In this document: in pieces, positions 1 through 18,403 of the stretch
Numbering within the stretch: the stretch's first letter is position 1
Layout: each line of letters starts with the position of its first letter
Assembly (NCBI GenBank): GCA_030728985.1
Contig: JANQYI010000012.1
Span: 124,001 to 188,000 of the forward strand
From: Burkholderiaceae bacterium
GTDB taxonomy: Bacteria; Pseudomonadota; Gammaproteobacteria; Burkholderiales; Burkholderiaceae_B
Direction: 5' to 3'
Length of the DNA stretch: 64,000 bases
The notes under the pieces: generated by a model
Told to the model about the DNA's origin: nothing
What the model saw: the letters and a program-made list of their open reading frames with translations, nothing else
The model's database searches: none
Made by a program: the position numbers and the translations under genes

Positions 1-400
1 GGGCAAGTTCACCTCTAATTTCTGGAAAGCGCTCACGGATGACCCCGGCAGTTAAAAGCGAACAGTGTTCGCCCATGTCTGACTTTTTAAATGATTCAAG
101 GATATCGATGGTCTCAGCCCGCTGGCCGACGACAATGAGTCCTTGATGACAAATTGGAATGCCGGCGAGTGGGGCGACTTCAGCCCATAGGTCTCTGGAC
201 CGCATAGCACGCCGCCAGGTGTCTCCTGCGCGTTGTCCAGTCACGGTAATAAAGCCGAAGTTGCGCACTGAGGCGCCCGTGCAATGACTATTTTTTTCGA
301 GTACGGCAACACGTAAGCCACGTTTGGCAGCCATCCAGGCGTGAGCTAAACCAACGATCCCGGCTCCCACCACCACGACATCATAATTAGTGGAGTGCAT
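1..400 (-). CDS. FAD-dependent oxidoreductase of the phosphonate-associated DAO family (N-terminal part)
   Basis: Only the N-terminal ~133 residues are in the window; the gene runs off the left edge. The protein opens with a Rossmann dinucleotide motif (VVVVGAGIVGLAHA, about residues 8-21), then LRVAVLEKN and ASVRNFGF, the pattern of glycine/D-amino-acid oxidase-like flavoproteins. It is the last visible gene of the phnCDE run and its ATG lies 14 bases inside the end of the alcohol dehydrogenase gene, so the two are translationally linked. Relatives of this family sit beside phosphonate-degradation genes and oxidise (N-methylated) aminoalkylphosphonates or similar amines; the substrate here is inferred from context only. 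Confidence 0.82.
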   Translation of the reverse strand, partial: MHSTNYDVVVVGAGIVGLAHAWMAAKRGLRVAVLEKNSHCTGASVRNFGFITVTGQRAGDTWRRAMRSRDLWAEVAPLAGIPICHQGLIVVGQRAETIDILESFKKSDMGEHCSLLTAGVIRERFPEIRGELA

Positions 401-1469
401 ACACCGATTCCGAAGTGACAAAGTTTTTGCCGCGTGTTGATTGCAGCGCCACTTTGATGCGCGCCTCAATCGCCTGGTTATCGTCACTCAACAAAATAGG
501 TTGATAGCCGAGACGAATCAGCCATTCTTGAAGTTCCCTTTCATCGTTAATGATGGGTTCCATCGATGCTCTCAAGTAAATACCAAGCTCTTCGGAAGAT
601 TCCCTCGCGATTTTGTAAACGCGGGGTAACCATTTGGCGCAGGCTTCACCATGAGACATGCCGCGCTGTGTGGTTTCTTCATAGGAAAGTGCGTGGACAA
701 GTGCTGTTTCAGTCAGTGCCATGGCTTGACCAGCCCAAAGAGCAGCCTGACTCATTTCAGCTCTTAGTGAGATGTCATGGGGGTGTTCAATTAATCCAGG
801 TAATACCCGGGTAATTTGTTGTGCGGCCGACATTGCAAACGCAAACGCTTTTGGGACACGTCGTCGGTTCCAAATAGACTCGAGTGCATGCGCGAGGGCA
901 TCGACACCGCTATCACGCGTCACCGTCCAAGGTGCGGTAAGACAGAGTTCTGGATCTATCACTGCCCAGTCTGCGGTGGCAGCGCTACCAAAAAATGAAT
1001 GTTTTGTGCCGCGTTGTAAATCCCAAAGAGTCGCAGTCGATGACACCTCGCTGCCGGTTCCTGCTGTTGTCGGCATGAGCAAGAGTGGACAAGCAATAAA
1101 TTCTCCGATGTCGCATACCCGATCCAACACCTGCGTGATAGAAGTGTTGGGCGCAAGAGCGATGCGCATGGATTTAGCTAAGTCCAGCGTGCTGCCCCCT
1201 CCAATGGCGATGAGTGTCGGTAAATCTCTGCCAGCATGACGAGACCAGAATTGATCGCGCAGACGATCCGCGACATCGATTGTCAATAGTCCATCTGGGC
1301 AATACAGGATATCTTTTAAGCGTGTCCCAAACATAGACCTCATCTCATCGATTAGTAATCTATTTGCATTGGAATGCAATAAGATCACGACGGCTCTGTC
1401 ACCGATCAATGATGGCGCAAGGTGACGCGCGCCGATACTAAAAGAGATCTCAGGTTTAGCTTCACTCAT
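387..1469 (-). CDS. Iron-containing alcohol dehydrogenase, phosphonate-associated
   Basis: A 360-residue group III (iron-activated) dehydrogenase. The NAD(P)-binding segment [11 protein letters not shown] (near residue 90), the [13 protein letters not shown] loop (near 133) and the metal-ligand segments around [18 protein letters not shown] and MSHGEA are visible. Its ATG overlaps the phnE stop codon as ATGA, so it is coupled to the transporter. Members of this family encoded next to phn transporters are usually assigned to the oxidation or reduction of phosphonate-derived aldehydes or alcohols; the exact substrate cannot be read from sequence. It is transcribed from the phnCDE promoter or from one further upstream. 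Confidence 0.88.
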
Positions 1470-2281
1470 GTCACGCGACTCCGCAGATAGGCTGAAATGA
1501 CATCAATCAAGGTGACGGTACCTACTAAAATAATGAGTACCGCACATGTTTCTGCGTATTGAAAACCGCGAATCACTTCATACAAAATCACGCCAATTCC
1601 ACCAGCGCCGACCATGCCCACCACTGAGGCTGAACGGACATTAGACTCAAAACGATACAGGCAGAATGAAATCCACATCGGTAGCACTTGGGGAAGGATG
1701 CCAAAGACGATTTCAGCAATTTTTGAGCCACCCGCAGCTCGAATGCCTTCGACGGGTCTGGGATCAATCGCTTCGACGGCTTCTGAAAATAATTTTGTAA
1801 GAGTGCCTGTCGTATGTACAAATAGAGCCAGTACTCCGGCGAAAGGACCTAGACCAACCGCGACAATAAACAGCAAGGCAAATACCATTTCATTGACTGC
1901 TCGAAGTGCATCCATGATGCGGCGCAGGGGTTGGTATATCCAGGGGCGCACAACATTGGAGGCGCATAAAAAACCGAGTGGAATAGAGGCAAGAACAGCA
2001 AGTAATGTGCCCCATAAAGCAATATGAATCGTGACAATCATTTCCTTGAAATAGATACGCCAATCAAGAAAGTTGGGCGGGAAAAAGTCTTTGGCTAGTG
2101 TCACGATGTTGCCGGAGTCTCGAACGAGATCGAGAGGACGAATTTCAGCGCCTTGCCAAGCCCAAGCGAGCAAAAGAAATGCTAAGAACCAGCCTAAGTA
2201 ATAACTTAGGCTGGGTCGTTCAGCACTCGCACGGGCTTTCACCCGTTCGAGTGGGGTTGTTACTAGAAAATCAGTGGTCAT
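1466..2281 (-). CDS. phnE: Phosphonate/phosphate ABC transporter permease PhnE
   Basis: A 271-residue inner-membrane permease of the binding-protein-dependent type. One membrane span near residue 30 is followed by the transmembrane domain from about residue 80 to the end. An EAA-like loop ([21 protein letters not shown] region, near residue 180) would dock PhnC. ATGA overlaps join it to phnD upstream and to the dehydrogenase downstream. It forms the channel through which phosphonates, or phosphate and its esters, captured by PhnD enter the cytoplasm. Only one permease gene is present, so it probably works as a homodimer. Confidence 0.93.
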
Positions 2282-3225
2282 TGAAGTTTTGCAAGCGCTT
2301 GATCAATTTCTTTAACTTTTGCGTCTTTTTCTGCTTGGCTTAGACCAGGTGCAGACATAATTTTTTGACGGTTTTTAAAGAGCTCAAGTTGACGAATTGG
2401 CTTGAGTTGGTCGTTATTGGACGCTCTGAATCCACCATAGTTGTAGATGTTTTTCAGGATCGTCTTTTCTTGAGCGTCAGTCTTGGCATAACCCAAAACA
2501 AAAGTACGTAATTTTTCTTTGATCGCCGGATCTAGATCTTTGCGCCATACAAAAGGGTCGCTTGGAATCAGTGGGCTCGTCCAAATCACACGAAGCTGCT
2601 TAAAGAGCTCAGGTTTAGTGACTTTCAAGCGTCCCATGTCTTCAGTGTTATTTGTGGCGACATCCAGTTGCTTGGCGAGCACGGCTTGAATATTGGCACC
2701 ATGGCTGCCATTGCGAACTGATTTAAAGATTGCACGGGGGTCGACCTTGCGCTCTGAGAAGATGTAATAAGTAGGCACGAGAAATCCAGATGTGGAGTTT
2801 GGATCACCAATGCCAAAATTCACATTCTTTGGATTTTTGAATACATCATCCAATGTCTTATAGGGCGAATCTTTGTGGGTGATCAGCAAAGCCTCATAGC
2901 CAAAACTACCATCGGCATACATTAATTGTGCAAAAATTTCACCGTTGGCACGATCGACAGCTTCCATCGCTGCTTTATTGCCATACCATGCGACCTGGAC
3001 TTTGTTAAAGCGCATTGCTTCAATCACTCCGGCATAATCAGTCGCATAAAAAGATTTGACTTTAAGGCCCGTTTTCTTTTCCATGTCTTTGAAAAAGGGT
3101 TCCCATTTTTCACGTTGTGCGGTTGCGGTATCTGTCGCGATAATGCCAAATGAAATTTCCTGAGCAAGTGCGATGGTGCTGGAGAGCGCCAAACAAGCTG
3201 AGAGTATAAGATTACGGATTTTCAT
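2278..3225 (-). CDS. phnD: Periplasmic phosphonate-binding protein PhnD
   Basis: A 315-residue solute-binding protein with a Sec signal peptide ([21 protein letters not shown], cut before QEISFG). The body has PhnD-type features: a segment naming the two-lobe cleft ([24 protein letters not shown]) and the [14 protein letters not shown] loop that usually holds the phosphonate group. A strong AGGAG lies just before the ATG, and phnC ends 12 bases upstream. It delivers ligand to PhnE/PhnC. The ligand could be 2-aminoethylphosphonate, another alkylphosphonate, or phosphite/phosphate; sequence alone does not decide. Confidence 0.93.
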
Positions 3226-3237
3226 AGTTACTCCTAA

Positions 3238-4095
3238 TTAAGCATCAATAAGTGTTGAGAACTGCTCTACGGGACGAGGGGAGGTTAAGTAGGTATCGGT
3301 GATGATTTCTTCGGCGTCTGCGCCGTATAAGTTTTCAAGGCGTTGCGCAGAGAGATCTGAGGCTAATCCGTCATAGATCAAGCGACCTTTACGCATGCCC
3401 AGCGCACGATGACAATATGTTTGAGCGATCGAAATCTGGTGCAGACTCACGAGGAGTGTCATGCCAAGATCTTTCGTCAGCCCAAATAAAACATCCATGA
3501 CCTTTTTGGCGGACGTTGGATCCAAAGAAGCGACGGGTTCGTCTGCAAGTAATAATTCAGAACCCTTGAGAAGTGCTCGCGCGACAGCGACACGTTGCTG
3601 TTGACCGCCAGATAGCGTTGAGGCACGCTGATACGCTTGAGGTCCAAGTCCGACCTTGTCGAGACATTCCAGTGCAGCGACTCTTTCGGCTTCGGTAAAG
3701 CGCTTCAGCATGATGTCCAACGCTGATTTGTTGGATAAACAACCCATTAGAACGTTTGTGATGACGTCGAGTTGCCCGACCAAATTGAACTGTTGAAACA
3801 CAACACCAATGGTCTTACGAATGTTTCGGATATCAGGCGAGTAATTTTTACCGTTGTAAAAAGACCGACCGTTAACGATGATCGAACCCTGATCAGAATC
3901 GATCTTTTCAAGTCCGCATAGAAGTCGGATTAGCGTTGATTTTCCAGATCCAGATGCACCGAGCAATGCAACAGACTCTCCTTTCTCGATGGAGAAAGTC
4001 ACATTATCGACGGCTAGGAACTTAGCTGAACGGTTCAGGCTATGGCTATTGAAGGTCTTTGAAACATGCCTAATATCCAAAAGAGAGGCACTCAT
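3238..4095 (-). CDS. phnC: Phosphonate ABC transporter ATP-binding protein PhnC
   Basis: A 285-residue ABC ATPase. Walker A GASGSGKST is at about 46-54, the Q-loop at VVFQQFN near 100, signature LSGGQQQR at 161-168 and Walker B LLLADEP at 181-187. It energises PhnE. Its ATG overlaps the plcP stop codon (ATGA), which puts a nutrient importer under the same transcript as a lipid-remodelling enzyme. It is slightly longer than typical PhnC, with an extra C-terminal tail after the D-loop/H-loop region. Confidence 0.93.
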   Translation of the reverse strand: MSASLLDIRHVSKTFNSHSLNRSAKFLAVDNVTFSIEKGESVALLGASGSGKSTLIRLLCGLEKIDSDQGSIIVNGRSFYNGKNYSPDIRNIRKTIGVVFQQFNLVGQLDVITNVLMGCLSNKSALDIMLKRFTEAERVAALECLDKVGLGPQAYQRASTLSGGQQQRVAVARALLKGSELLLADEPVASLDPTSAKKVMDVLFGLTKDLGMTLLVSLHQISIAQTYCHRALGMRKGRLIYDGLASDLSAQRLENLYGADAEEIITDTYLTSPRPVEQFSTLIDA

Positions 4096-4904
4096 ACGAT
4101 GACCTCCTCCTCTTCGATATTCTTAATGACACTGGCTCTATAGGGCCAGTGAATGATCTTTAGTTCGCCTGAGTAGGTTTCGACAATCGCAGAAAGGCTC
4201 TCAACCCAATCACCGTCGTTGCAATACAGAATGCCGTTGATGTAACGAATTTCAGGCTTGTGGATATGTCCGCAAAGGACGCCATCGTAACCACGTCTCT
4301 TGGCCTCGTCTGTCAATATTGTTTCAAATTGAGTGATGAATGAAACGGCGTTTTTTACACGGTGCTTCAGGTATTGCGATAGAGACCAATAAGACATTCC
4401 AAATTTATGACGGAGATGGTTAAAGGTATTGTTGAGCTTTAATATCAGTGTGTAGAGCGAATCACCCAGATAGGCAAGCCACTTTGCATGTTGGATGATT
4501 CCATCAAACAGATCTCCGTGCGTGATCCAAAGCTTTTTGCCATTTAGAAGATCATGTATCGCTTCGTCGACGATGGTGATATCGCCAAATGCCATGCCGG
4601 CGAAAGGGCGAAGCGCCTCATCATGGTTACCCGCGATATAAACGACCCGTGTACCTTTTCTGGACTTTCGCAGTATTTTTTGAATGACGTCATTATGGCT
4701 TTGTCGCCAGTACCAGCCCCGTTTGAGTTGCCAACCATCGATGATGTCACCGACAAGATAAAGGTACTCGGATTCGTTGTATTTAAGGAAGTCAACTAAA
4801 TACTCGGCTTTGCAGCCCGGTGTCCCTAGATGAATATCCGAAATCCATATGGAGCGGTATCGCTCATGGCACTGCTCTGGCGTCGAAAATTCAGCTGGGA
4901 TCAT
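4092..4904 (-). CDS. plcP: PlcP-type phospholipase C-like metallophosphoesterase
   Basis: A 270-residue calcineurin-type phosphoesterase. Metal-site motifs run in order: SDIHLG (22-27), GDIIDGW (52-58), GNHDE (92-96), HGDLFD (129-134) and GHIH (212-215). The stretch GWYWRQSHNDVIQK is the hallmark of PlcP, which cleaves phospholipid headgroups to leave diacylglycerol during phosphate starvation. Generic annotation would call it a UDP-2,3-diacylglucosamine hydrolase (LpxH); the adjacent agt gene 32 bases upstream, the known plcP-agt pairing and the Pho setting argue for PlcP. It is expected at the cytoplasmic face of the inner membrane. The substrate specificity is inferred, not seen. Confidence 0.88.
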   Translation of the reverse strand: MIPAEFSTPEQCHERYRSIWISDIHLGTPGCKAEYLVDFLKYNESEYLYLVGDIIDGWQLKRGWYWRQSHNDVIQKILRKSRKGTRVVYIAGNHDEALRPFAGMAFGDITIVDEAIHDLLNGKKLWITHGDLFDGIIQHAKWLAYLGDSLYTLILKLNNTFNHLRHKFGMSYWSLSQYLKHRVKNAVSFITQFETILTDEAKRRGYDGVLCGHIHKPEIRYINGILYCNDGDWVESLSAIVETYSGELKIIHWPYRASVIKNIEEEEVIV

Positions 4905-4936
4905 ATTTAATATTGTCTCCAGTCATGATGACGGTT

Positions 4937-6169
4937 TTATGTCGGAATAATGAACTTATTGTGACAATTTGATTTTCTTGTATGTCCTTCGATGACTTCT
5001 TTGAAAATAAGCTCTGTACGGCTCACAATTTCTTCCCATGCATGCTGTCCCGCTGTGGCGATCGCGGCTTGGCCATATTCATTAATGCTTGTTTTGTTCA
5101 TGACGGTGTCCATTACACCGCTAATAAATGCTGTTTCGTTCTCGGGTTCAACGGTGAGTCCATTAACGCCGGGTTGTATGAGCTCACCCGCAGCGGCGTG
5201 GCGGTAGGCTACGACAGCGAGTCCGCTTGCCATGGCTTCGATGGTGACATTGCCAAATGTTTCGGTGAGGCTCGGAAATACAAAGATATCTGCGCTTGCA
5301 TAGTGCTGCGCGAGATCTGCGCCACGCTTTATGCCTGTGAAAATGGCATGAGGACACTGTTTTTCGAGGGTGGTGCGGCATGGGCCATCCCCAACAATGA
5401 CGAGCTTTGTAGTGGGCGCAATAGTGCGTGCTGCTTCGTAACTGCGAAGAAGAAGATCAAGATTTTTCTCTACAGCAAGCCTGCCAACCGAGATCAGCAC
5501 AATATCCTCGGGTTGAGCACCCCAAGAGGCGCGCAATGTCTCTGAGCGAAGCATCGGAGAGAAATGGGCGGTATCTACGCCTCTGGGCATGACGCTGAGG
5601 TTTAAAAATCCCTTTATATGCAATGCCTGTTGAAGCTTTGCCGTTGGAACCATCGTGCGGTCAGTTTTGTTGTGAATGCATCGCAGGTACGCCATGATCA
5701 ACGGCTCAAGAAATCCGAGCTTGTACATCGAACTGTAGGCATGAAAGTTCGTTCGAAAATCTGACGTGATGGGAATATTGAGTTCCCGCGCCGCCTGAAC
5801 AGCGGACCAACCGAGAGGACCTTCGGTCGCGACATGGACAAGGTCAGGTCTCTTCGCTATCCATCGTTTAATGAGCTTTTTCTTCGAGAAAAAGCCCATC
5901 CGTAATTCGCTATAAAGAGGTATGGGAAACGATTTGACAAGAAAGTCAGGCTTTGTCGCAGTGTTGTTTTTATGCTGCTGATCTATTAGCTGTTCTGGTC
6001 TCACAACAAAAACATGGTGATTATTTGCTCTGAGGCCACGCACTAGCATCGCAATTGTCTGCGAGACACCGTTTATTTCAGGGGGGTATGTTTCCGTGAC
6101 GACATCGATATGAAGTTTTGGGTTGCTGAGAGGAATACGCGCCTGATCGCTCCGAACTGTCCCAGTCAT
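4937..6169 (-). CDS. agt: Family GT4 diacylglycerol glycosyltransferase (Agt-like)
   Basis: A 410-residue GT-B glycosyltransferase. The acceptor-side glycine-rich loop lies at ETYPPEINGVSQT (26-38), SVGRLAVEKN begins the donor domain (227-236), and the EX7E pair is E303...E311 in SLTETFGNVTIEAMASG. Paired with PlcP, such enzymes add one or more sugars to the diacylglycerol that PlcP releases, giving phosphorus-free glycolipids. I chose the ATG at 6169 over the one at 6214: the upstream ATG lies inside a Pho-box-like site, and a GGAAT ribosome site precedes 6169. The sugar donor (UDP-glucose or UDP-glucuronate) is unknown. First gene of the minus-strand run. Confidence 0.87.
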   Translation of the reverse strand: MTGTVRSDQARIPLSNPKLHIDVVTETYPPEINGVSQTIAMLVRGLRANNHHVFVVRPEQLIDQQHKNNTATKPDFLVKSFPIPLYSELRMGFFSKKKLIKRWIAKRPDLVHVATEGPLGWSAVQAARELNIPITSDFRTNFHAYSSMYKLGFLEPLIMAYLRCIHNKTDRTMVPTAKLQQALHIKGFLNLSVMPRGVDTAHFSPMLRSETLRASWGAQPEDIVLISVGRLAVEKNLDLLLRSYEAARTIAPTTKLVIVGDGPCRTTLEKQCPHAIFTGIKRGADLAQHYASADIFVFPSLTETFGNVTIEAMASGLAVVAYRHAAAGELIQPGVNGLTVEPENETAFISGVMDTVMNKTSINEYGQAAIATAGQHAWEEIVSRTELIFKEVIEGHTRKSNCHNKFIIPT

Positions 6170-6212: not shown

Positions 6213-6230
6213 ATAACGCTTTGATGACAG
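6213..6230 (-). promoter_or_regulatory. Candidate Pho box upstream of agt-plcP-phnCDE
   Basis: Read on the minus strand, CTGTCAT CAAA GCGTTAT fits the 7-4-7 PhoB layout: the first half matches CTGTCAT exactly, the second at 4 of 7 positions. It ends about 45 bases before the chosen agt start. A functional phoB gene lies 7 kb away. Found by eye, not by a scored matrix. Confidence 0.45.
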
Positions 6231-6256
6231 TTCGATCAAATGCCTGCCTGTCATCA
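6222..6256. repeat. Inverted repeat between agt and the divergent Mpo1-like gene
   Basis: TGATGACAG (6222-6230) and CTGTCATCA (6248-6256) are perfect inverted copies separated by 17 bases, centred in the divergent intergenic region. Each arm contains a CTGTCAT PhoB half-site facing its own gene, so it may be a shared operator for both directions. Confidence 0.5.
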
Positions 6257-6346: not shown

Positions 6347-6955
6347 ATGCAAGCACTTTTAGGACAGCTTTCTGAACAGCGTTGGGATGATCATCGTCTG
6401 TATCATCACAGTCGAATTAATCAAAGTTTGCACTTGGTGAGCGCGTTAACGTTCATCTTCGCTTACGTGATGCTATTTATCAATCCTGTGATCGCTTCTC
6501 TCGCAGCATGGCTAGTTTCGATGACTACGCGACAGGCAGGACATTTTTTCTTTGAACCGAGGGGCTTTGACTATGTCAATAACATGACGGACGAGCATAA
6601 AGAAAAGATCAAAGTGGGATACAACATTCAACGAAAAATTGTCTTAATGGGCGTTTGGGCATCGATGCCAGTTATTGCCTATTTTTATCCTACGCTACTC
6701 GAGTGGGCTGTTCCGAATGAAAAATATCACGATTTTATTGGTCTGACCGCCATGTGGTGGTTGTATTTAGGCTTAGGTGGAATGTTGTTTCGTATGTTGC
6801 AACTTTGGGTGCAGGATAGCGCGCTCAACGCGTTAGCTTGGGGAGTCAAGATCATGACGGATCCATTTCATGACGTAAAGTTGTATTACAAAGCGCCTTT
6901 CTATTTATTGAAAGGCGAGTTGATTGATCCCATGACACACGTCCATGCCAAATAA
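6347..6955 (+). CDS. Mpo1/DUF962-like small membrane protein
   Basis: A 202-residue protein with several hydrophobic segments (about 31-60, 95-120 and 135-160). The spaced histidines YHHSRINQSLH (19-29) and GHFFFE (65-70) resemble the conserved histidines of the DUF962/Mpo1 family, whose yeast member is an iron-dependent dioxygenase in 2-hydroxy fatty acid alpha-oxidation. I start at the ATG at 6347, which has GCGGAG just upstream; an open frame extends to 6221 but would carry an unlikely leader through the operator. It is divergent from agt and convergent with the aminotransferase. A role in fatty-acyl or lipid modification is inference; family assignment is by motif memory only. Confidence 0.6.
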   Translation: MQALLGQLSEQRWDDHRLYHHSRINQSLHLVSALTFIFAYVMLFINPVIASLAAWLVSMTTRQAGHFFFEPRGFDYVNNMTDEHKEKIKVGYNIQRKIVLMGVWASMPVIAYFYPTLLEWAVPNEKYHDFIGLTAMWWLYLGLGGMLFRMLQLWVQDSALNALAWGVKIMTDPFHDVKLYYKAPFYLLKGELIDPMTHVHAK

Positions 6956-6962
6956 TTAATTT

Positions 6963-8621
6963 TTATTTCAGTCGCGCTTTAAGTAATTCGAGCGCGACTG
7001 AACGCTTAATATTTTTGTTGGTTTGTTCTGCCGATATCCACCACCAGCCTTGCTCTTGCAGTTCTTTTGCCGCATTTACAAATCTTTGACTAAACTCCTC
7101 AAAGTCTGTGTCGCTAAAACCCAAATTAAAAATCAAGCGTCCTGTACCCACCCAGCTCAGCGCGATGCCATGTTTTCTCAAGTAATACTGCAGCATCCAG
7201 TTATAGCGACTCGGTACATCATAGATGACGGTCCATACGGTTGACATGGCCTCCATGCGCAAGGGAATGTTCTCTTCCTTCAAGCGCGCATTCAGTTGTT
7301 TTTTTCTGGCGCTCCAGACTTGATCAAGATTGTCATAAAGTGTGTTGATTTCAGGACGATCGAGTTGTTTGAGAAAACTATTCATGGCGCCCATTACGTA
7401 AGGGTGCGCATTAAAGGTGCCGCGGGAAAAGCAAAGGTCAGCTGGGCTGTTGTCTCTAAAGCGCTTCATTAATTCTGCTTGACCGCACAAAACACCAATG
7501 GGTAGTCCACCCCCTAAAGTTTTTCCATAAGTCGCCATATCGGCGCGAATTCCAAAGTATTCTTGAGCGCCACCTTTCGCGAGACGAAAGCCCATAAATA
7601 CTTCGTCAAAAATCAATACGATGCCGCGCTCCGTGCATACTTCTCGGACTTCTTTCAGCCAGGCGGTGTATGCCTCTCTGTCGTAATGCGCCTGACGAGA
7701 ACCGTCGACCAACATAGAGTCTGTCGGTGCAGCGCGATTGGGGTGCATGGCTTGAATGGGATTGATCAGCACACAGGCGATGTCGCGACGTCGACGCAGC
7801 ACGCGTAACGTATTTTGATGCATGTCTCGTAACGTTAATGTATCTGGCGAAGGCGGCATCGGATTGCCCGGGCCGGGTTGCACGTCATCCCACCAACCGT
7901 GATAAGCGCTGGTAAACCTGACAATTTTGTTGCGTCGTGTGTGATAGCGCGCGACTCGGACGGCCTGCATGACGGCCTCAGTGCCGGACATATGAAAGGT
8001 GACTTCATCCATGCCTGATAGTTCAGTGATGCGTCGCGCATTATCCAATACACAGGGGTGATATCCACCAAGTTGTGGGCCAAGTGCTTGGACTGTCTCG
8101 GATCCTTCACGAATGCAGTTTTTATAAAAATCCTGGCCAAATAAATTCACCCCGTACGAGCCGCTGACATCGATAAATGTTTGTCCATCAAGATCTGTCA
8201 ACCACACACCATGCGTTTCTTTGTAGAAACTTCCCGTCATCAGGTTCTTTTCAATCACCTCGCGGAACTGGAAGGGCACGCGGTATCGGCTAGTAAGCTG
8301 TAGATCGGATAGCATTTTTTTTGCTTGTGCCGTGTCAGCCAGTGAGTTTGGACTCTTCTCTCTGAGTGTCTGACTTAGGGCTAAGAATGCATTTTTTCGT
8401 TTCTCTACGATGTGTGTTGGCGCGCCATCAATGCTCAACCATTGCTTTTCACTGTATGAGTAACCGCGAATGATGCCGGCAATGCGTTTAGCCCACCGCA
8501 GATGCCCGCCGAGCCCAGGTGATTTGGCGAGCGAGAGCTGAAGACGTTGTAACAATGCAGCACCTAACCACAAGACAAGCATTGTCACAATAGTGTATTG
8601 AAGTAGTAGCAGAATTGTCAT
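6963..8621 (-). CDS. Membrane-anchored class III aminotransferase (glutamate-1-semialdehyde aminomutase-like)
   Basis: A 552-residue PLP enzyme. The N-terminus is a hydrophobic anchor (about residues 2-24), followed by a ~100-residue linker domain. The fold-type I aminotransferase domain follows: HMSGTEA (210-216), YHGWWDD (240-246), IFDEVFMGFRLAKGGAQEYFG (from 337) and the PLP lysine K367 in YGKTLGGGLPIG. It is longer than GsaB/HemL (about 430 residues), and HemL itself has no membrane anchor, so it is unlikely to serve heme synthesis. The catalytic core resembles the aminotransferase domains that act on carrier-bound beta-keto acyl chains. Placed back to back with psd, it may transaminate a membrane-bound acyl substrate; that is inference. 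Confidence 0.8.
   Translation of the reverse strand: MTILLLLQYTIVTMLVLWLGAALLQRLQLSLAKSPGLGGHLRWAKRIAGIIRGYSYSEKQWLSIDGAPTHIVEKRKNAFLALSQTLREKSPNSLADTAQAKKMLSDLQLTSRYRVPFQFREVIEKNLMTGSFYKETHGVWLTDLDGQTFIDVSGSYGVNLFGQDFYKNCIREGSETVQALGPQLGGYHPCVLDNARRITELSGMDEVTFHMSGTEAVMQAVRVARYHTRRNKIVRFTSAYHGWWDDVQPGPGNPMPPSPDTLTLRDMHQNTLRVLRRRRDIACVLINPIQAMHPNRAAPTDSMLVDGSRQAHYDREAYTAWLKEVREVCTERGIVLIFDEVFMGFRLAKGGAQEYFGIRADMATYGKTLGGGLPIGVLCGQAELMKRFRDNSPADLCFSRGTFNAHPYVMGAMNSFLKQLDRPEINTLYDNLDQVWSARKKQLNARLKEENIPLRMEAMSTVWTVIYDVPSRYNWMLQYYLRKHGIALSWVGTGRLIFNLGFSDTDFEEFSQRFVNAAKELQEQGWWWISAEQTNKNIKRSVALELLKARLK
6968..7001. terminator. Bidirectional terminator-like hairpin
   Basis: A perfect 11-base stem, TCAGTCGCGCT with AGCGCGACTGA, and a 12-base loop. 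It overlaps the last codons of the minus-strand aminotransferase gene and lies between two convergent genes. AT-rich sequence, but no clean T-run, follows on either side. Confidence 0.5.
8582..8599 (+). promoter_or_regulatory. Weak Pho-box-like site upstream of psd
   Basis: TTGTCAC AATA GTGTATT has 7-4-7 spacing with about 6 and 4 matches to the PhoB half-site. A further TTGTCAT begins exactly 33 bases later (8615). It lies inside the 5' end of the divergent aminotransferase gene. Weak evidence. Confidence 0.2.
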
Positions 8622-8635
8622 GTTTTGATATCCAT
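8618..8635 (-). other. Five-codon leader ORF coupled to the aminotransferase start
   Basis: The best ribosome site here (AAGGAG, 8646-8651) is placed for the ATG at 8635, which encodes only MDIKT before a stop. That stop overlaps the aminotransferase ATG as ATGA. It could be a translational coupler. Alternatively the enzyme starts at an upstream TTG in its own frame. Confidence 0.35.
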
Positions 8636-8673
8636 GCGAAGAGAACTCCTTTTTATACAAGTTGAATGACTAA

Positions 8674-9546
8674 ATGATGAAATTCACAAAACTTATAAGA
8701 AAACTTATATCGAATGAGGATTTAAATTTTTTATTGACCAACAGAATTCCGCGTCATGCTCTGACATTGTGGATGGGATGGTTTAGCAAAATTGAAGTCC
8801 CTTGGATCAAGAGTCTTTCTATTTATGTTTGGCGTATCTTTACGGACCTAGACCTAACCGAAGCAAAAAAGACGTCGTTCAAAAGTTTGCATGACTGTTT
8901 TACGCGAGAGTTGCGCGAGGGTGCTCGAGTGATTGATCAAAATCTAGATTGTTTGACCAGTCCATGCGATGGCATTGTTGGAGAGTGTGGCACCATCACC
9001 GATGGACAGGTCTTTCAAGCAAAAGGATTTCCATATCAAATTTCCGAGTTGATGGGTGACCAAGTCAACCCACGTTGTTTAGAAGGTGGTGTGTATGTGA
9101 CCTTGCGCCTCACTTCTGCCATGTATCATCGATTTCACGCCCCTTATGCAGGGGAAATCGACCGCGTTGTCTATCACTCTGGAGATACGTGGAATGTCAA
9201 TCCGATCGCTTTGCGTCGTATTGAAAAGTTGTTCTGTATGAACGAGCGGGCCATGTTGTCGATGTCGATTTCGCCACATCGACATCGAATTTATCTTGTT
9301 CCTGTCGCTGCTATTTTGGTCGCGAGCCTTCGCATACATGGTCTTAACGTCTTGTTAAACAGTGCCTATCGCGGCCGTCGCGTGATCGACTGTGATTTAG
9401 CATTTAATAAGGGTCAAGAAATTGGTTGGTTCGAGCATGGATCAACCATCATCGTTTTCGCGCCAAAAGGCTTTGTTCTTGCGCCTGGTGTGACCTGTGG
9501 TTCAAAAGTAAAAATGGGTACCGCCTTGATCAAGCTGCCTGGCTGA
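8674..9546 (+). CDS. psd: Phosphatidylserine decarboxylase, Psd
   Basis: A 290-residue pyruvoyl-dependent decarboxylase that turns phosphatidylserine into phosphatidylethanolamine at the inner membrane. FTRELREGARVID (76-88), the catalytic D99 in SPCDG, H155 in YHRFHAP and the self-cleavage site HGST (255-258, serine 257 becoming the pyruvoyl group) are all present. The residue before GST is histidine, where E. coli has leucine. Its start is only about 40 bases from the divergent aminotransferase start. Its location among lipid and Pho genes instead of housekeeping neighbours suggests either a starvation role or a paralogue acting on another headgroup. It overlaps the convergent acyltransferase gene by 17 bases. 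Confidence 0.9.
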   Translation: MMKFTKLIRKLISNEDLNFLLTNRIPRHALTLWMGWFSKIEVPWIKSLSIYVWRIFTDLDLTEAKKTSFKSLHDCFTRELREGARVIDQNLDCLTSPCDGIVGECGTITDGQVFQAKGFPYQISELMGDQVNPRCLEGGVYVTLRLTSAMYHRFHAPYAGEIDRVVYHSGDTWNVNPIALRRIEKLFCMNERAMLSMSISPHRHRIYLVPVAAILVASLRIHGLNVLLNSAYRGRRVIDCDLAFNKGQEIGWFEHGSTIIVFAPKGFVLAPGVTCGSKVKMGTALIKLPG

Positions 9547-10330
9547 ATTCAGGGAGCTCAAACCCTAGTCGTTGCTTGTAGCGCGCATTGATTTCAGATA
9601 CGGTGAGCAGCATAGGGAAGTCTGCGGTATTGAAGTCAGGGTCCCACGCAGGCTGTCCACAGACTTTCACTCCAATTTTTAGATAACCTGCAATCAGCGC
9701 AGGGATATTTGCAGGAAGCTGTGGGTTCACATGTTCTACGGGGTAGGGATGGAGAGGGCTGACTGTCAAGCCACCTTGTTGATCCACGAGTCCTCGCACA
9801 CTTCGCCAGACCTCTGCGGCGGTGACGCCATCGTCGCGTAAGCTCACGCTCGCACAACCCAGCACGTAGCGATAATGATTTTTTCTGACTAAAGCGGACA
9901 AGCCTGACCAAAGCAACATGAGTGTAGGACCGCTGCGATAATCTACATCAATGCAGGCTCGACCAAATTCTACCGTTTGGTGACGAATGGACTGAAGGCC
10001 GGAAAGATCGAATTCTGATTCGGAGTAAAAGCCCCCTGCAAGGATCGCTTGCTCGGGTCTCAGTATTCGGTACGTTCCCACTACTTTTTTGTTTGCCTGA
10101 TCATGAACAAGTAGATGATCGCAATATTGATCAAATCTGTCCTCGTCGAGGCCGGGTGCTTGAGAATTGAAGTGGATTCCAAACTCTTGGCTAAAGACAG
10201 TATGTCGTAAGCGTTGTGCTAATTTAATTTCTTTTTTTGAGGTGGCTAGGCTAACCTTTAAGTGCTGTTTAGATTTTCTCTTTTGTTTGTACGCGCAATA
10301 TTCTGGTTGTTCGGGGACTAGGATCAGCAT
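9530..10330 (-). CDS. OlsB-like N-acyltransferase (GNAT fold)
   Basis: A 266-residue protein of the ornithine N-acyltransferase/hemolysin-like GNAT family. Family features include LRHTVFSQEFG near residue 43, CDHLLVHDQ, VVGTYRIL near 88, and VEFGRACIDVDYRSGP near 124. OlsB acylates the alpha-amino group of ornithine with a 3-hydroxyacyl chain from acyl carrier protein, the first step to phosphorus-free ornithine lipids. No olsA partner is visible nearby, so the second acyl transfer must come from elsewhere or the product differs. A GGAG lies about 10 bases before the ATG. It is divergent from phoX with a Pho-box-like site about 44 bases upstream. Confidence 0.8.
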   Translation of the reverse strand: MLILVPEQPEYCAYKQKRKSKQHLKVSLATSKKEIKLAQRLRHTVFSQEFGIHFNSQAPGLDEDRFDQYCDHLLVHDQANKKVVGTYRILRPEQAILAGGFYSESEFDLSGLQSIRHQTVEFGRACIDVDYRSGPTLMLLWSGLSALVRKNHYRYVLGCASVSLRDDGVTAAEVWRSVRGLVDQQGGLTVSPLHPYPVEHVNPQLPANIPALIAGYLKIGVKVCGQPAWDPDFNTADFPMLLTVSEINARYKQRLGFELPEFSQAA

Positions 10331-10415: not shown

Positions 10416-10433
10416 CTGTCACGGTCGCGTCAT
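10416..10433 (+). promoter_or_regulatory. Candidate Pho box for phoX
   Basis: CTGTCAC GGTC GCGTCAT has 7-4-7 spacing; the first half is essentially consensus and the second matches 5 of 7. It ends 62 bases before the phoX start, a usual distance for a PhoB-activated promoter. Confidence 0.5.
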
Positions 10434-15640: not shown

Positions 15641-15830
15641 CGCTTGCAGCAAGTGGATATCCGCGTCGATATTGAGCCGGACTTATGCGTCAAGGCCGAC
15701 CAAATTGAGTCGTGCCATCATGGACTCGCACGAGGGTTCGATCAAACTTTTGACAGGGCCGGCGGGTGAAACCTTGTTTCAGGTTTCTCTGCCGGCCTAT
15801 GCACATTTAGATCATGAGTCTGATGTTTAG
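15641..15830 (+). pseudogene. Remnant of a sensor histidine kinase C-terminus
   Basis: Two short stretches in different frames look like pieces of a kinase ATPase domain. Frame one (15644-15709) reads LQQVDIRVDIEPDLCVKADQIE, like the segment before an N box. The other frame, ending at the TAG at 15828, reads MDSHEGSIKLLTGPAGETLF then QVSLP, like a kinase C-terminus. The middle is missing. The remnant lies directly after phoR and ends in the dps stop codon. It is most simply the decayed tail of a second kinase gene. Confidence 0.45.
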
Positions 15831-16357
15831 TCTTCTAAAACGCTGCGTAGCATCCAGGCGGTTTTTTCATGCACCTCCAAGCGCTGCGTCAAGAGATCTG
15901 CAGTGGGTTGATCGTTAGCTTCGCCCACGACGGGAAACAGACTGCGTGCGGTTTTCGCCGTTGCCTCTTGGGCTTTGACGAGGTAGCGCACCATTTCAGT
16001 GGCTGAAGGCACACCTTCGACTTGTTTGACGGAGGCGAGCTTTTCAAACTCTTGATAGGTACCCGGAGCGGGGTGGCCCAGCGCGCGGATGCGTTCTGCG
16101 ATCAGGTCTAATGCAGTCCATTGCTCTGTGTATTGCGCCATGAACATCTGGTGCAAGCTATTGAATTGCGGGCCGGTGACGTTCCAGTGAAAGTTGTGTG
16201 TCATCAGATACAAGGCGTAACTATCCGCCAGAAGCTTGGATAGTCCTTTGGCGATTTTGGCGCGCTCATTGGCGCTGATACCAATATCGATCATAAGTGC
16301 GCCAGCACCTTTCGCGTTGCCAGCTTTCTTTTTGGTCGAGATCCGTTTTGTTGCCAT
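15827..16357 (-). CDS. dps: Dps-family DNA-binding ferritin-like protein
   Basis: A 176-residue Dps/ferritin-like protein. A lysine-rich N-terminal tail (MATKRISTKKKAGNAKGAG) is suited to DNA binding, and the ferroxidase segment THNFHWNVTGPQF (near residue 50) plus HQMFMAQYTEQW carry the conserved H, D and E ligands. It stores iron and protects DNA in starvation and oxidative stress. I start at the ATG at 16357, which has AGGAG just upstream, rather than at an upstream in-frame codon. It stands alone, antisense to the kinase remnant. Confidence 0.92.
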   Translation of the reverse strand: MATKRISTKKKAGNAKGAGALMIDIGISANERAKIAKGLSKLLADSYALYLMTHNFHWNVTGPQFNSLHQMFMAQYTEQWTALDLIAERIRALGHPAPGTYQEFEKLASVKQVEGVPSATEMVRYLVKAQEATAKTARSLFPVVGEANDQPTADLLTQRLEVHEKTAWMLRSVLED

Positions 16358-16484
16358 GATTAAAACTCCTTTACTGTCCAAGAGAGACAGCTTAACTATA
16401 GTCCTGTTCAGAGCGGTGTGGCTTTATATTGTTTGATCACAGGCATAGGCGCAGACTAACGCGCATCGATGGGAGTGTCACGCT

Positions 16485-16859
16485 CTAATCAGAGCGAACC
16501 TTGCCTTTCAACCGCTCAAGTAATGTGGCCGACTGCGCTTGCGCTTGCTGTTCGATGCTTCGATAGAGCGCGATGACTTCGAGACCCATTGGCGTGAGAG
16601 CCGTGCCTCCGCCTTGCGCGCCACCGGTCGCCGCGACCACGACGGGTTCTGTAAAGTACTGATTCATCTGATCGACTAATAGCCAGGCGCGTCGATAAGA
16701 CATCCCTATTTTGCGTCCCGCGGCAGAAATGGAGCCAGTTTCGGCGATGGCTTCAAGGATCGCAATTTTACCGGGGCCGATAGCGACTTGATCCCCATAT
16801 TTGACTCGCAGTCGGAACTGGGCCACCACTTTATTCGATGAGGGAGGGTGTGTCGGCAT
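16485..16859 (-). CDS. ModE-like winged-helix regulator
   Basis: A 124-residue protein equal to the DNA-binding half of ModE: GKIAILEAIAETGSISAAGRKIGMSYRRAWLLVDQMN is the LysR-like helix-turn-helix, and GGAQGGGTALTPMG is a typical wing. The molybdate-binding TOBE domains of full ModE are absent, as in many short homologues. It may sense molybdate or another signal through a partner, or control its neighbour. The ATG at 16859 lies 7 bases after the flavocytochrome gene, so the two are probably co-transcribed. A small hairpin overlaps its stop codon. Confidence 0.85.
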   Translation of the reverse strand: MPTHPPSSNKVVAQFRLRVKYGDQVAIGPGKIAILEAIAETGSISAAGRKIGMSYRRAWLLVDQMNQYFTEPVVVAATGGAQGGGTALTPMGLEVIALYRSIEQQAQAQSATLLERLKGKVRSD

Positions 16860-16866
16860 TTGATGT

Positions 16867-18204
16867 TCAACGCATTTCAAAGAGTTCTTGGTGGAAGCGA
16901 CGAGCAGGCAAGCCCTCTTTTAAAAGACCGCATTGAATCGCCTCGCCAAAGTTCGTCGCGCCACAGAACCAGACGGTGTAGGCGAGGAAATCGGGGACGT
17001 TATCGCAGATCGTACGCGCAGTTAAGGCCGGATTTTGACCGCTGATCGCGAGGTGAAGCGGGATGCCTGCTTGGTCTGCCAAGGTTTGAACGCGTTCGAT
17101 CAGCGTATGATCTGATTCGCGCGCGCTGTAAAAGAGCGTGATCGGTTGTCGGGAATGGCGGGGCGCTTGAGCCAGCGCTTCCAGTCGCGATAAAAAAGGT
17201 GTGATGCCAATACCACCCGCAATCCAGATTTGAGGTTCTGGGTGCGCAGCGAAATCAAATCTTCCGTAAGGTCCTTCGACTGTGACGGGGTCGCCTACCT
17301 TGAGCGTGTGACTCAAGCTTCGTGTGTAATCGCCCAGTTGCTTGATATGAAAGGTGAGTGTCGCGTCATCCTTCCAGCTCGAGGACAAGGTAAAGGGGTG
17401 GTGTCCCTCGCGGTTATCAAAGGTGACAAAAGCGAACTGACCTTCCTTGTGTCCTTCCCACGGGGTCGTGAGCAACACCTCGACTTCAGTGACTTTGCCG
17501 TCTTCATGCACGCGAATTTGACTAATCTTTCCAGACGCGCGGTGACTGGCGCCAATTTTCTGAAAGAGAGAAATCAACGCCGCGGGTATGCCGACCAGCA
17601 AGAGCGCTCCGACTAGGAGGCCAATCGGGGAGAGCCAGTTGATTTTTCCAAAGAGAATGAGGGAGTGAAAGGCTAAGATCAAGTAAATGACGGCCAGGAT
17701 GCGATGCGTTTTGAAAAAGTAGCGGTAGGGAAATTTTTTCCAAAGCGCGAGCACGGCCAGGACGAGGAGTGCGTAAAGCGCCCATTCGCCGAGATCTTTG
17801 GCGAGATCTTCGAGAGGCTTGAAAAAATGATGATGCTGAAAAAAACCAAGTGTGTCTGGTGGGGTGACAAAGTCGTTTTTGTCGAAGAGACCGAGTTCGA
17901 TCAGCCATTTGTATTTCTTGCTGAGCCAATGGGCCAGCGCGAATAAGGCGGCCGCGATACCGAGCCATTTGTGCAGTCGATAATGTGTGTCAAGTCCTCC
18001 GACCCAACGCTCCACTGTACGCAGTCGCATGGCGAGAATCACGCCAATAGTCATGGCGAGAAAGGACATGATGCCTGTGTAGTAAAGCACTGATTTGCGC
18101 AACGCCCAAGGCGCGAGCGTGCGCTCGACATCAGTCAGACTGACCCAGTACAGCATGGTGCCAAGTACCATTAGCAGCAGGAAAATCCACTTAATTCTTT
18201 TCAT
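16867..18204 (-). CDS. Ferric-reductase-like transmembrane flavocytochrome
   Basis: About 445 residues. The N-terminal half has six or so membrane spans with histidines placed to bind two hemes (HYRLHKWLG, LAHWLSKKY, KTHRIL, AFHSLIL). An FAD domain (HHPFTLSS) and an NAD(P) domain (AGGIGITPFLSRLEAL, then VWFCGAT) follow. This ferric reductase/NADPH-oxidase-like fold passes electrons from cytoplasmic NAD(P)H across the membrane. The final acceptor, ferric iron or another metal or oxygen, is not evident. Paired with a ModE-like regulator, an oxidoreductase or metal role is plausible. An ATG at 18204 is preferred to a TTG 9 bases upstream. Confidence 0.88.
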   Translation of the reverse strand: MKRIKWIFLLLMVLGTMLYWVSLTDVERTLAPWALRKSVLYYTGIMSFLAMTIGVILAMRLRTVERWVGGLDTHYRLHKWLGIAAALFALAHWLSKKYKWLIELGLFDKNDFVTPPDTLGFFQHHHFFKPLEDLAKDLGEWALYALLVLAVLALWKKFPYRYFFKTHRILAVIYLILAFHSLILFGKINWLSPIGLLVGALLLVGIPAALISLFQKIGASHRASGKISQIRVHEDGKVTEVEVLLTTPWEGHKEGQFAFVTFDNREGHHPFTLSSSWKDDATLTFHIKQLGDYTRSLSHTLKVGDPVTVEGPYGRFDFAAHPEPQIWIAGGIGITPFLSRLEALAQAPRHSRQPITLFYSARESDHTLIERVQTLADQAGIPLHLAISGQNPALTARTICDNVPDFLAYTVWFCGATNFGEAIQCGLLKEGLPARRFHQELFEMR

Positions 18205-18403
18205 ATGCACCAAGGTGAGGGCTCAGGCAGGTGGGCGGGCTGCGAGCACGTATTTTAAATATTAATCGAGAGGTAAAGAATTCGCCTCAATCCTAGTATA
18301 TTAATGGTCTAAGCGAGGTAACGCTCGTGCAGAGCCATCGCGTGTGCGCTTGAGCGTGTTGGGACCCTGCATTTTATGAATGAATGTTGATCTGGAGCTG
18401 TAG

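Follow-up and report, generated by a model that had tools for sequence, protein, structure and literature searches.

Do the genes that lie between the agt-plcP and phoX-phoUBR genes of a Burkholderiaceae bacterium build a membrane lipid without phosphorus, and if so, which of them belong to the pathway? Phosphorus-free lipids permit bacterial growth where phosphate is scarce, for example in fresh water and soil. The stretch of DNA analysed here (the window) comprises 64 kb of a 2.35 Mb draft genome with a completeness of 86.66% (assembly GCA_030728985.1, contig JANQYI010000012.1). A preliminary description of the window had proposed that four genes at positions 6347-10330, encoding an Mpo1-like membrane protein, a class III aminotransferase (AT3), a phosphatidylserine decarboxylase (PSD) and an OlsB-like N-acyltransferase, form a lipid module that acts under phosphate stress. 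Our analysis supports a module of three of these genes (psd, AT3 and mpo1; hereafter the trio), which encode lipid-type enzymes and are conserved together in a phosphate-stress setting; it does not support the inclusion of olsB. The trio is a real and widespread module and is apparently undescribed: no description was found in a literature search that drew mostly on titles and the beginnings of abstracts and was thin on subscription journals. If a pathway this widespread has indeed escaped description, it would mean that a membrane lipid has gone unrecognised.

Co-occurrence and order of the three core genes

Family scans of the window reproduced the coordinates and family names of the four genes, the weakest labels being those of Mpo1 (PF06127 at the cut-off) and OlsB (models far under their cut-offs):
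6347..6955, plus strand: first core gene, for a multi-helix membrane protein of Mpo1-like (DUF962-like) type; PF06127 score at the cut-off or slightly below it
6963..8621, minus strand: second core gene, for the membrane-anchored class III aminotransferase; PF00202, 129 bits
8674..9546, plus strand: third core gene, for a PSD paralog that is not the housekeeping copy; PF02666, 181 bits; TIGR00163, 142.5 bits (cut-off 111.75)
9530..10330, minus strand: OlsB-like N-acyltransferase, a neighbour and not core; PF13444, 117 bits

AT3 was present in 27 of 101 relatives, namely 24 of 32 from the genus itself plus 3 from other families, and in the 20 stretches around AT3 the genes psd, AT3, mpo1 and agt (encoding a GT4 glycosyltransferase) were found together wherever the contig was long enough. 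A search of a named collection confirmed at least 591 relatives, of which the best 80 were kept; 58 of these 80 loci, all from Burkholderiales, had at least 1200 bases before and at least 3500 bases after AT3. psd and mpo1 stood beside AT3 in 58 of the 58 loci, always in the alternating order psd(-) AT3(+) mpo1(-), to which agt(+) was added in 54. In a phylum-wide sample of 398 genomes, AT3, mpo1 and the module clade of psd were each found in 25 genomes, and each search found its gene in 11 genera; all three genes were present in 24 genomes, part of the trio in 2, and none in 372. Both partial cases were draft genomes, one with AT3 alone (G227) and one with psd and mpo1 without AT3 (G360). From the 24 AT3 genomes of this sample other than that of the window, 20 further loci were fetched; the trio was complete in all 20, in the same order in 16 and as a one-direction cluster in 4. 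Co-occurrence in other genomes had been set beforehand as the observation on which the proposal could fail, and it was found for psd, AT3 and mpo1: the conservation of these three among the four genes exceeds chance by a wide margin. Named records with the trio include Zwartia, Limnohabitans, Variovorax, Curvibacter, Hydrogenophaga and Sulfuricella, as well as a Sphingomonas plasmid. In Limnohabitans sp. MMS-10A-178 (L098:10266-11960), a PhoD phosphatase gene is inserted between AT3 and mpo1.

A PSD clade distinct from the housekeeping enzyme

At least two PF02666 genes were found in 21 of 21 module genomes tested, and likewise in the genome of the window, where the other PSD gene (contig C16) adjoins a gene that by eye resembles pssA. 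We therefore rejected the trio gene as the housekeeping PSD; since every module genome (n = 21) has another PSD, the trio paralog is not needed for ordinary phosphatidylethanolamine (PE). Module PSDs scored 374.6-545.2 bits on the module profile, whereas the nine other PSDs found by the profile scored at most 156.4 bits. In a PSD tree, a branch with support 90/89 separated the 20 module rows from the rest; this tree covers 9 of the 21 non-module PSD stretches, the remaining 12 having given no match to the module profile at E 0.01, and one of its rows has a very long branch. The motifs HGST and YHR-H and the residue D99, which we take to be catalytic (with self-cleavage at the GST of HGST), were invariant in 12 of 12 paralog sequences. 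The paralog matched the solved E. coli PSD at 130 bits in a profile comparison, with the catalytic motifs kept in the alignment; the TIGR00163 model that it also matches is itself named archaetidylserine decarboxylase. Thus the trio enzyme shares its family with the E. coli-type PSD and differs from it in forming a separate clade encoded beside AT3 and the Mpo1-like protein.

The aminotransferase and the Mpo1-like protein

The closest solved sequence to AT3 is the amine-transfer domain of mycosubtilin synthase MycA (215 bits, in an alignment spanning most of the catalytic domain), vs. 146 bits for the best glutamate-1-semialdehyde aminomutase (HemL), which bears out the earlier view that AT3 is akin to enzymes transferring amines to keto-acyl groups rather than to HemL. 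An assignment as HemL itself was rejected (NCBIfam hemL, 178 bits with a cut-off of 527; PRK00062, 186 bits with a cut-off of 398). The YGKT motif around the lysine aligned with MycA was invariant in 12 AT3 sequences, and this lysine is presumably the one that binds pyridoxal phosphate. The MycA domain sits in a carrier-protein assembly line, whereas AT3 is a stand-alone protein whose N-terminus is hydrophobic; the neighbour families listed for 102 loci include neither a carrier nor a ketosynthase gene. Many basic residues follow the hydrophobic N-terminus, a pattern that suggests attachment to the membrane from the cytosolic side. The ATG start at 8621 is common to two near relatives; the frame could also begin further upstream, at a TTG (8660).

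The Mpo1-like protein of the window scored 24.6 bits with PF06127 when read from an upstream TTG start and 23.6 bits from the ATG (cut-off 24), and 12 of 12 aligned members matched the family (below E 1). Residues H16, H20, H29, H66 and E70 were invariant in 55 sequences; the four histidines are compatible with an iron-dependent alpha-oxidation of 2-hydroxy fatty acids. Yeast Mpo1, a 2-hydroxy fatty acid dioxygenase as its Pfam family is named, is linked to the 12 trio members by their matches to PF06127, with a score that lies at the cut-off. The predicted structure is confident and helical (mean predicted local distance difference test score 89.5); no solved relative was found by sequence at E 10, and a fold search, whose best match of 95 at E 10 had E 1.7, gave none that was convincing. 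In one locus (L169:10250-10842) the mpo1 match is split into two adjoining pieces, possibly by a frameshift or a sequencing error.

OlsB is a neighbour

The OlsB-like gene had been counted as a fourth member of the unit, and we rejected it as such. The OlsB family PF13444 was absent from 5 of 29 module genomes, with a sixth match being weak (G135, 31 bits), and olsB lay within 5 kb of the core in only 20 of 102 loci. Among the 20 AT3 stretches, partial contigs included, olsB was found in 8 (L033, L034, L040, L041, L046, L049, L050 and the window). OlsB is part of the neighbourhood, not of the core; in many lineages it is agt that belongs with the unit instead. The window gene reached neither of the NCBIfam OlsB models (150.9 bits with a cut-off of 320, and 146.4 bits with a cut-off of 350). 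The further statement that no olsA is present holds for the stretch read and is insecure for the genome: an OlsA-like gene lies on another contig (L031), with the OlsA model as the best of its matches at 134.6 bits, under the cut-off of 300. A true OlsF gene directly follows mpo1 in locus L172 (841 bits, cut-off 620), and a protein similar to OlsF is encoded after mpo1 in locus L177.

Predicted Pho boxes

Matches to the Pho-box consensus were found in the following gaps of the window:
6213..6241, minus strand: two overlapping Pho-box-like matches in the agt/mpo1 gap; 11/14 each, shuffle p = 0.017 and 0.03
4928..4945, minus strand: Pho-box-like site in the gap from the end of agt to plcP; 11/14, shuffle p = 0.003
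10416..10433, plus strand: Pho-box-like site between olsB and phoX; 11/14, shuffle p = 0/300 and 0.02

These shuffle p-values are too kind, because control divergent regions also beat the shuffle expectation (23 of 84). The window as a whole holds 8 sites with at least 11 of 14 consensus bases, vs. 2-7 in ten shuffles, and four of the 8 lie in or at module gaps. Across loci, the gap between mpo1 and agt contained a site of at least 18/22 in 34 of 68 cases, vs. 8 of 84 control divergent gaps (Fisher p = 4 × 10−8); elsewhere such a site was seen in 5 of 232 tandem control gaps and in none of 40 convergent control gaps or 41 AT3/mpo1 gaps. The trio may belong to the Pho regulon, with predicted boxes that are enriched at mpo1/agt and not clearly at psd/AT3.

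Genes around the core

As the preliminary description had it, the four genes lie between agt-plcP and phoX-phoUBR, and phnCDE are also present in the flank. On the minus strand the order is adh, phnE, phnD, phnC, plcP and agt; mpo1 (+), AT3 (-), psd (+) and olsB (-) follow, and phoX, phoU, phoB and phoR come after olsB on the plus strand:
4092..4904, minus strand: plcP-like phosphoesterase, a frequent neighbour; PF12850, 37.7 bits; PF00149, 36.8 bits
4937..6214, minus strand: GT4 glycosyltransferase agt, a unit member in many lineages; PF13692, PF00534, PF13439
10496..15622, plus strand: phoX, phoU, phoB and phoR; PF05787, PF01895, PF00072/PF00486, and PF11808 with HisKA/HATPase

Within 5 kb of the core in 102 loci, with one representative scanned per neighbour family, we found lplT in 40, plcP in 33, ugd in 28, olsB in the 20 given above, a PmtA-like methyltransferase in 13, PPK2 in 12, phoX in 11, 5'-nucleotidase in 10, PhoD in 7, Ppx in 7 and GDPD in 5. 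The PhoX, PhoD, 5'-nucleotidase, Ppx, PPK2, GDPD and PlcP-like neighbours also point to phosphate stress. In 8 loci (L059:5718-7939, L097:5859-7972, L055, L056, L057, L058, L060 and L061), the lysophospholipid transporter gene lplT and psd lie on the same strand and share 1-4 bases; the window has no lplT at that place, and psd there runs into olsB. The presence of lplT near the core fits lipid handling and equally fits salvage. The one PmtA-like methyltransferase scanned scored 156 bits, under the cut-off of 390; on the plasmid of Sphingomonas parapaucimobilis, a gene annotated as a methyltransferase comes after the trio. No NCBIfam model exceeded its cut-off with the plcP-like protein, and we assume the name plcP for this gene, as no model assigns it.

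A more distant GT4 gene (33-36% identity) takes the place of the agt-like gene in some lineages, and no agt-like match was found within 20 kb in four of the 20 phylum-wide loci (L170, L171, L174 and L175). In the four one-direction clusters, GT4 forms the C-terminal part of a protein of ~900 residues (L176:6608-9484 and L172:10503-13175; also L173 and L177). No Pfam family was matched by residues 1-480 in L176, and a PHP-type domain before GT4, read from a motif, was dropped from consideration.

The outer parts of the flanks contain, at 387-4095, the phosphonate transport genes phnCDE and a PsrA-like iron alcohol dehydrogenase gene (TIGR03405, 229.6 bits, under the cut-off of 423.7), all co-directional with plcP, and, at 15827-18213 after phoR, genes for a Dps-like ferritin, a protein with a LysR-type DNA-binding domain and a ferric-reductase-like protein.

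A proposed pathway and its alternatives

What might the trio make? We propose that it constitutes one Pho-induced pathway at the inner membrane that builds a phosphorus-free stand-in for PE with a primary amine as its head group, a proposal to which we give about even credence. The Mpo1-like protein would oxidise a 2-hydroxy acid carried on a lipid, AT3 would convert the resulting lipid-borne 2-oxo acid to a 2-amino acid, and the PSD paralog would decarboxylate the latter to the amine. We infer this direction, these substrates and this order of steps (hydroxy, keto, amino, amine at the alpha carbon), as well as the product, given that alpha-amino acids are what PSD-type enzymes decarboxylate and that the name of Mpo1 refers to 2-hydroxy acids. 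In parallel, plcP would strip phospholipids and the GT4 enzyme would glycosylate the freed diacylglycerol. Lineages with an adjacent PmtA-like methyltransferase might produce an N-methylated stand-in for phosphatidylcholine (PC). More tentatively, and in our view doubtfully, the product could be a new class of phosphorus-free lipids, a non-phosphate twin of PE that is methylated to a twin of PC in some Alphaproteobacteria and that replaces the lipids made by BtaAB where these are absent. The proposal also offers candidate functions for two proteins, the PSD paralog and the DUF962-like protein, that are now annotated wrongly or as 'hypothetical'.

Several observations weigh against the proposed pathway. 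The loci that carry the co-occurrence are related and not independent. The known Mpo1 reaction differs from the 2-hydroxy to 2-oxo oxidation proposed here, the marginal similarity to PF06127 makes a dioxygenase role uncertain, and MycA acts on beta-keto, not alpha-keto, groups. Mpo1-like genes also occur alone on Bradyrhizobium plasmids, with no AT3 or psd annotated nearby (L179:10145-10639 and L180:8001-8639, the two inspected among 8 matching plasmid records). As to phosphate control, the psd/AT3 gap had no site of at least 18/22 in 66 loci, and sites at p ≤ 0.05 were found in just 29 of 66, vs. 23 of 84 divergent controls (p = 0.04), the controls themselves exceeding the shuffle expectation. 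The psd/AT3 region does score 18-21 in eight loci of one genus (L160-L166 and L169) when it is bounded differently, with 20 coding bases added on each side; start codons can feed such matches. These sites are missing from the count across loci because the gene starts there cover them.

Phospholipid turnover would explain part of the same evidence without any new lipid, if the PSD paralog, AT3 and LplT salvaged or broke down PE or phosphoethanolamine and thereby freed phosphate and nitrogen. The frequency of lplT near the core (40 of 102 loci) and its same-strand overlap with psd in 8 loci speak for turnover, as do the GDPD, PlcP-like and phosphatase genes nearby, and phosphoethanolamine phospho-lyase has the class III aminotransferase fold. 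However, AT3 is anchored and closest to MycA, and of the 31 solved sequences that it matches at E 1e-20 or better none is named a phospho-lyase, an identity that we set aside as less likely. A second PSD would produce PE, not remove it, and no role is left for the Mpo1-like protein. We consider turnover unlikely. An aminated glycolipid, in which AT3 and its partners aminate the head group of a glycosyl- or glucuronosyl-diacylglycerol formed by the GT4 enzyme, would account for the GT4 gene, which adjoins the trio in 54 of 58 loci and forms part of a longer protein in the 4 one-direction clusters, and for ugd, found near the core in 28 of 102. The solved relatives of AT3 include, at a weak 77 bits, a C-6' aminotransferase, and Agt is reported to make glucosyl- and also glucuronosyl-diacylglycerol (PMC4796936, PMC3972451). 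The four loci with no agt-like match within 20 kb, and the Sphingomonas plasmid, where no glycosyltransferase is annotated by the trio, argue against this reading, which also leaves PSD with no obvious substrate and which we regard as quite unlikely.

It is improbable, finally, that the locus makes only ordinary ornithine lipid, through OlsB and an OlsA encoded elsewhere, with the other genes as unrelated bystanders of the Pho regulon. The OlsA-like gene on another contig and the OlsF gene after mpo1 in L172 are in keeping with it, and it may be right for olsB alone; yet it leaves the near all-or-none co-occurrence and fixed order of the trio unexplained, and 5 of 29 module genomes are without PF13444.

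Comparison with known phosphorus-free lipid systems

The ornithine-lipid pathway (OlsB/OlsA and OlsF) meets the trio in two places, through the OlsB-like gene adjacent in the window and OlsF adjacent in L172, and differs in that its OlsB family is missing from the module genomes just mentioned; to our knowledge, the trio has no part in it. The betaine lipid diacylglyceryltrimethylhomoserine, made by BtaA and BtaB, is likewise an amine-headed, phosphorus-free lipid of phosphate stress, and the PmtA-like methyltransferase in 13 loci recalls BtaB, but the enzymes are others and the trio genomes lack BtaA: PF11899 was found in 0 of 16 trio genomes tested, nor in the genome of the window. BtaA was present in 31 of the 398 genomes of the phylum-wide sample, none of them shared with the trio, where an overlap of ~2 would be expected and the chance of zero is 0.12, which tells against reading much into the separation. 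One genus (g167) has both kinds, with BtaA in G128 and the trio in G242 and G265. That the trio replaces BtaA is only suggestive.

The remodelling by PlcP and Agt in Agrobacterium and SAR11 shares with the locus a Pho-linked, phospholipase-like gene adjoining a GT4 gene (PMC4796936, PMC3972451). It differs in that the passages on it in these two papers mention no PSD paralog, AT3 or Mpo1-like gene; the words 'aminotransferase' and 'decarboxylase' have 0 occurrences in the main text of PMC4796936. By analogy, the trio would work like the Pho-controlled lipid replacement systems PlcP-Agt, BtaAB and OlsBA, with core enzymes that differ from those of all three.

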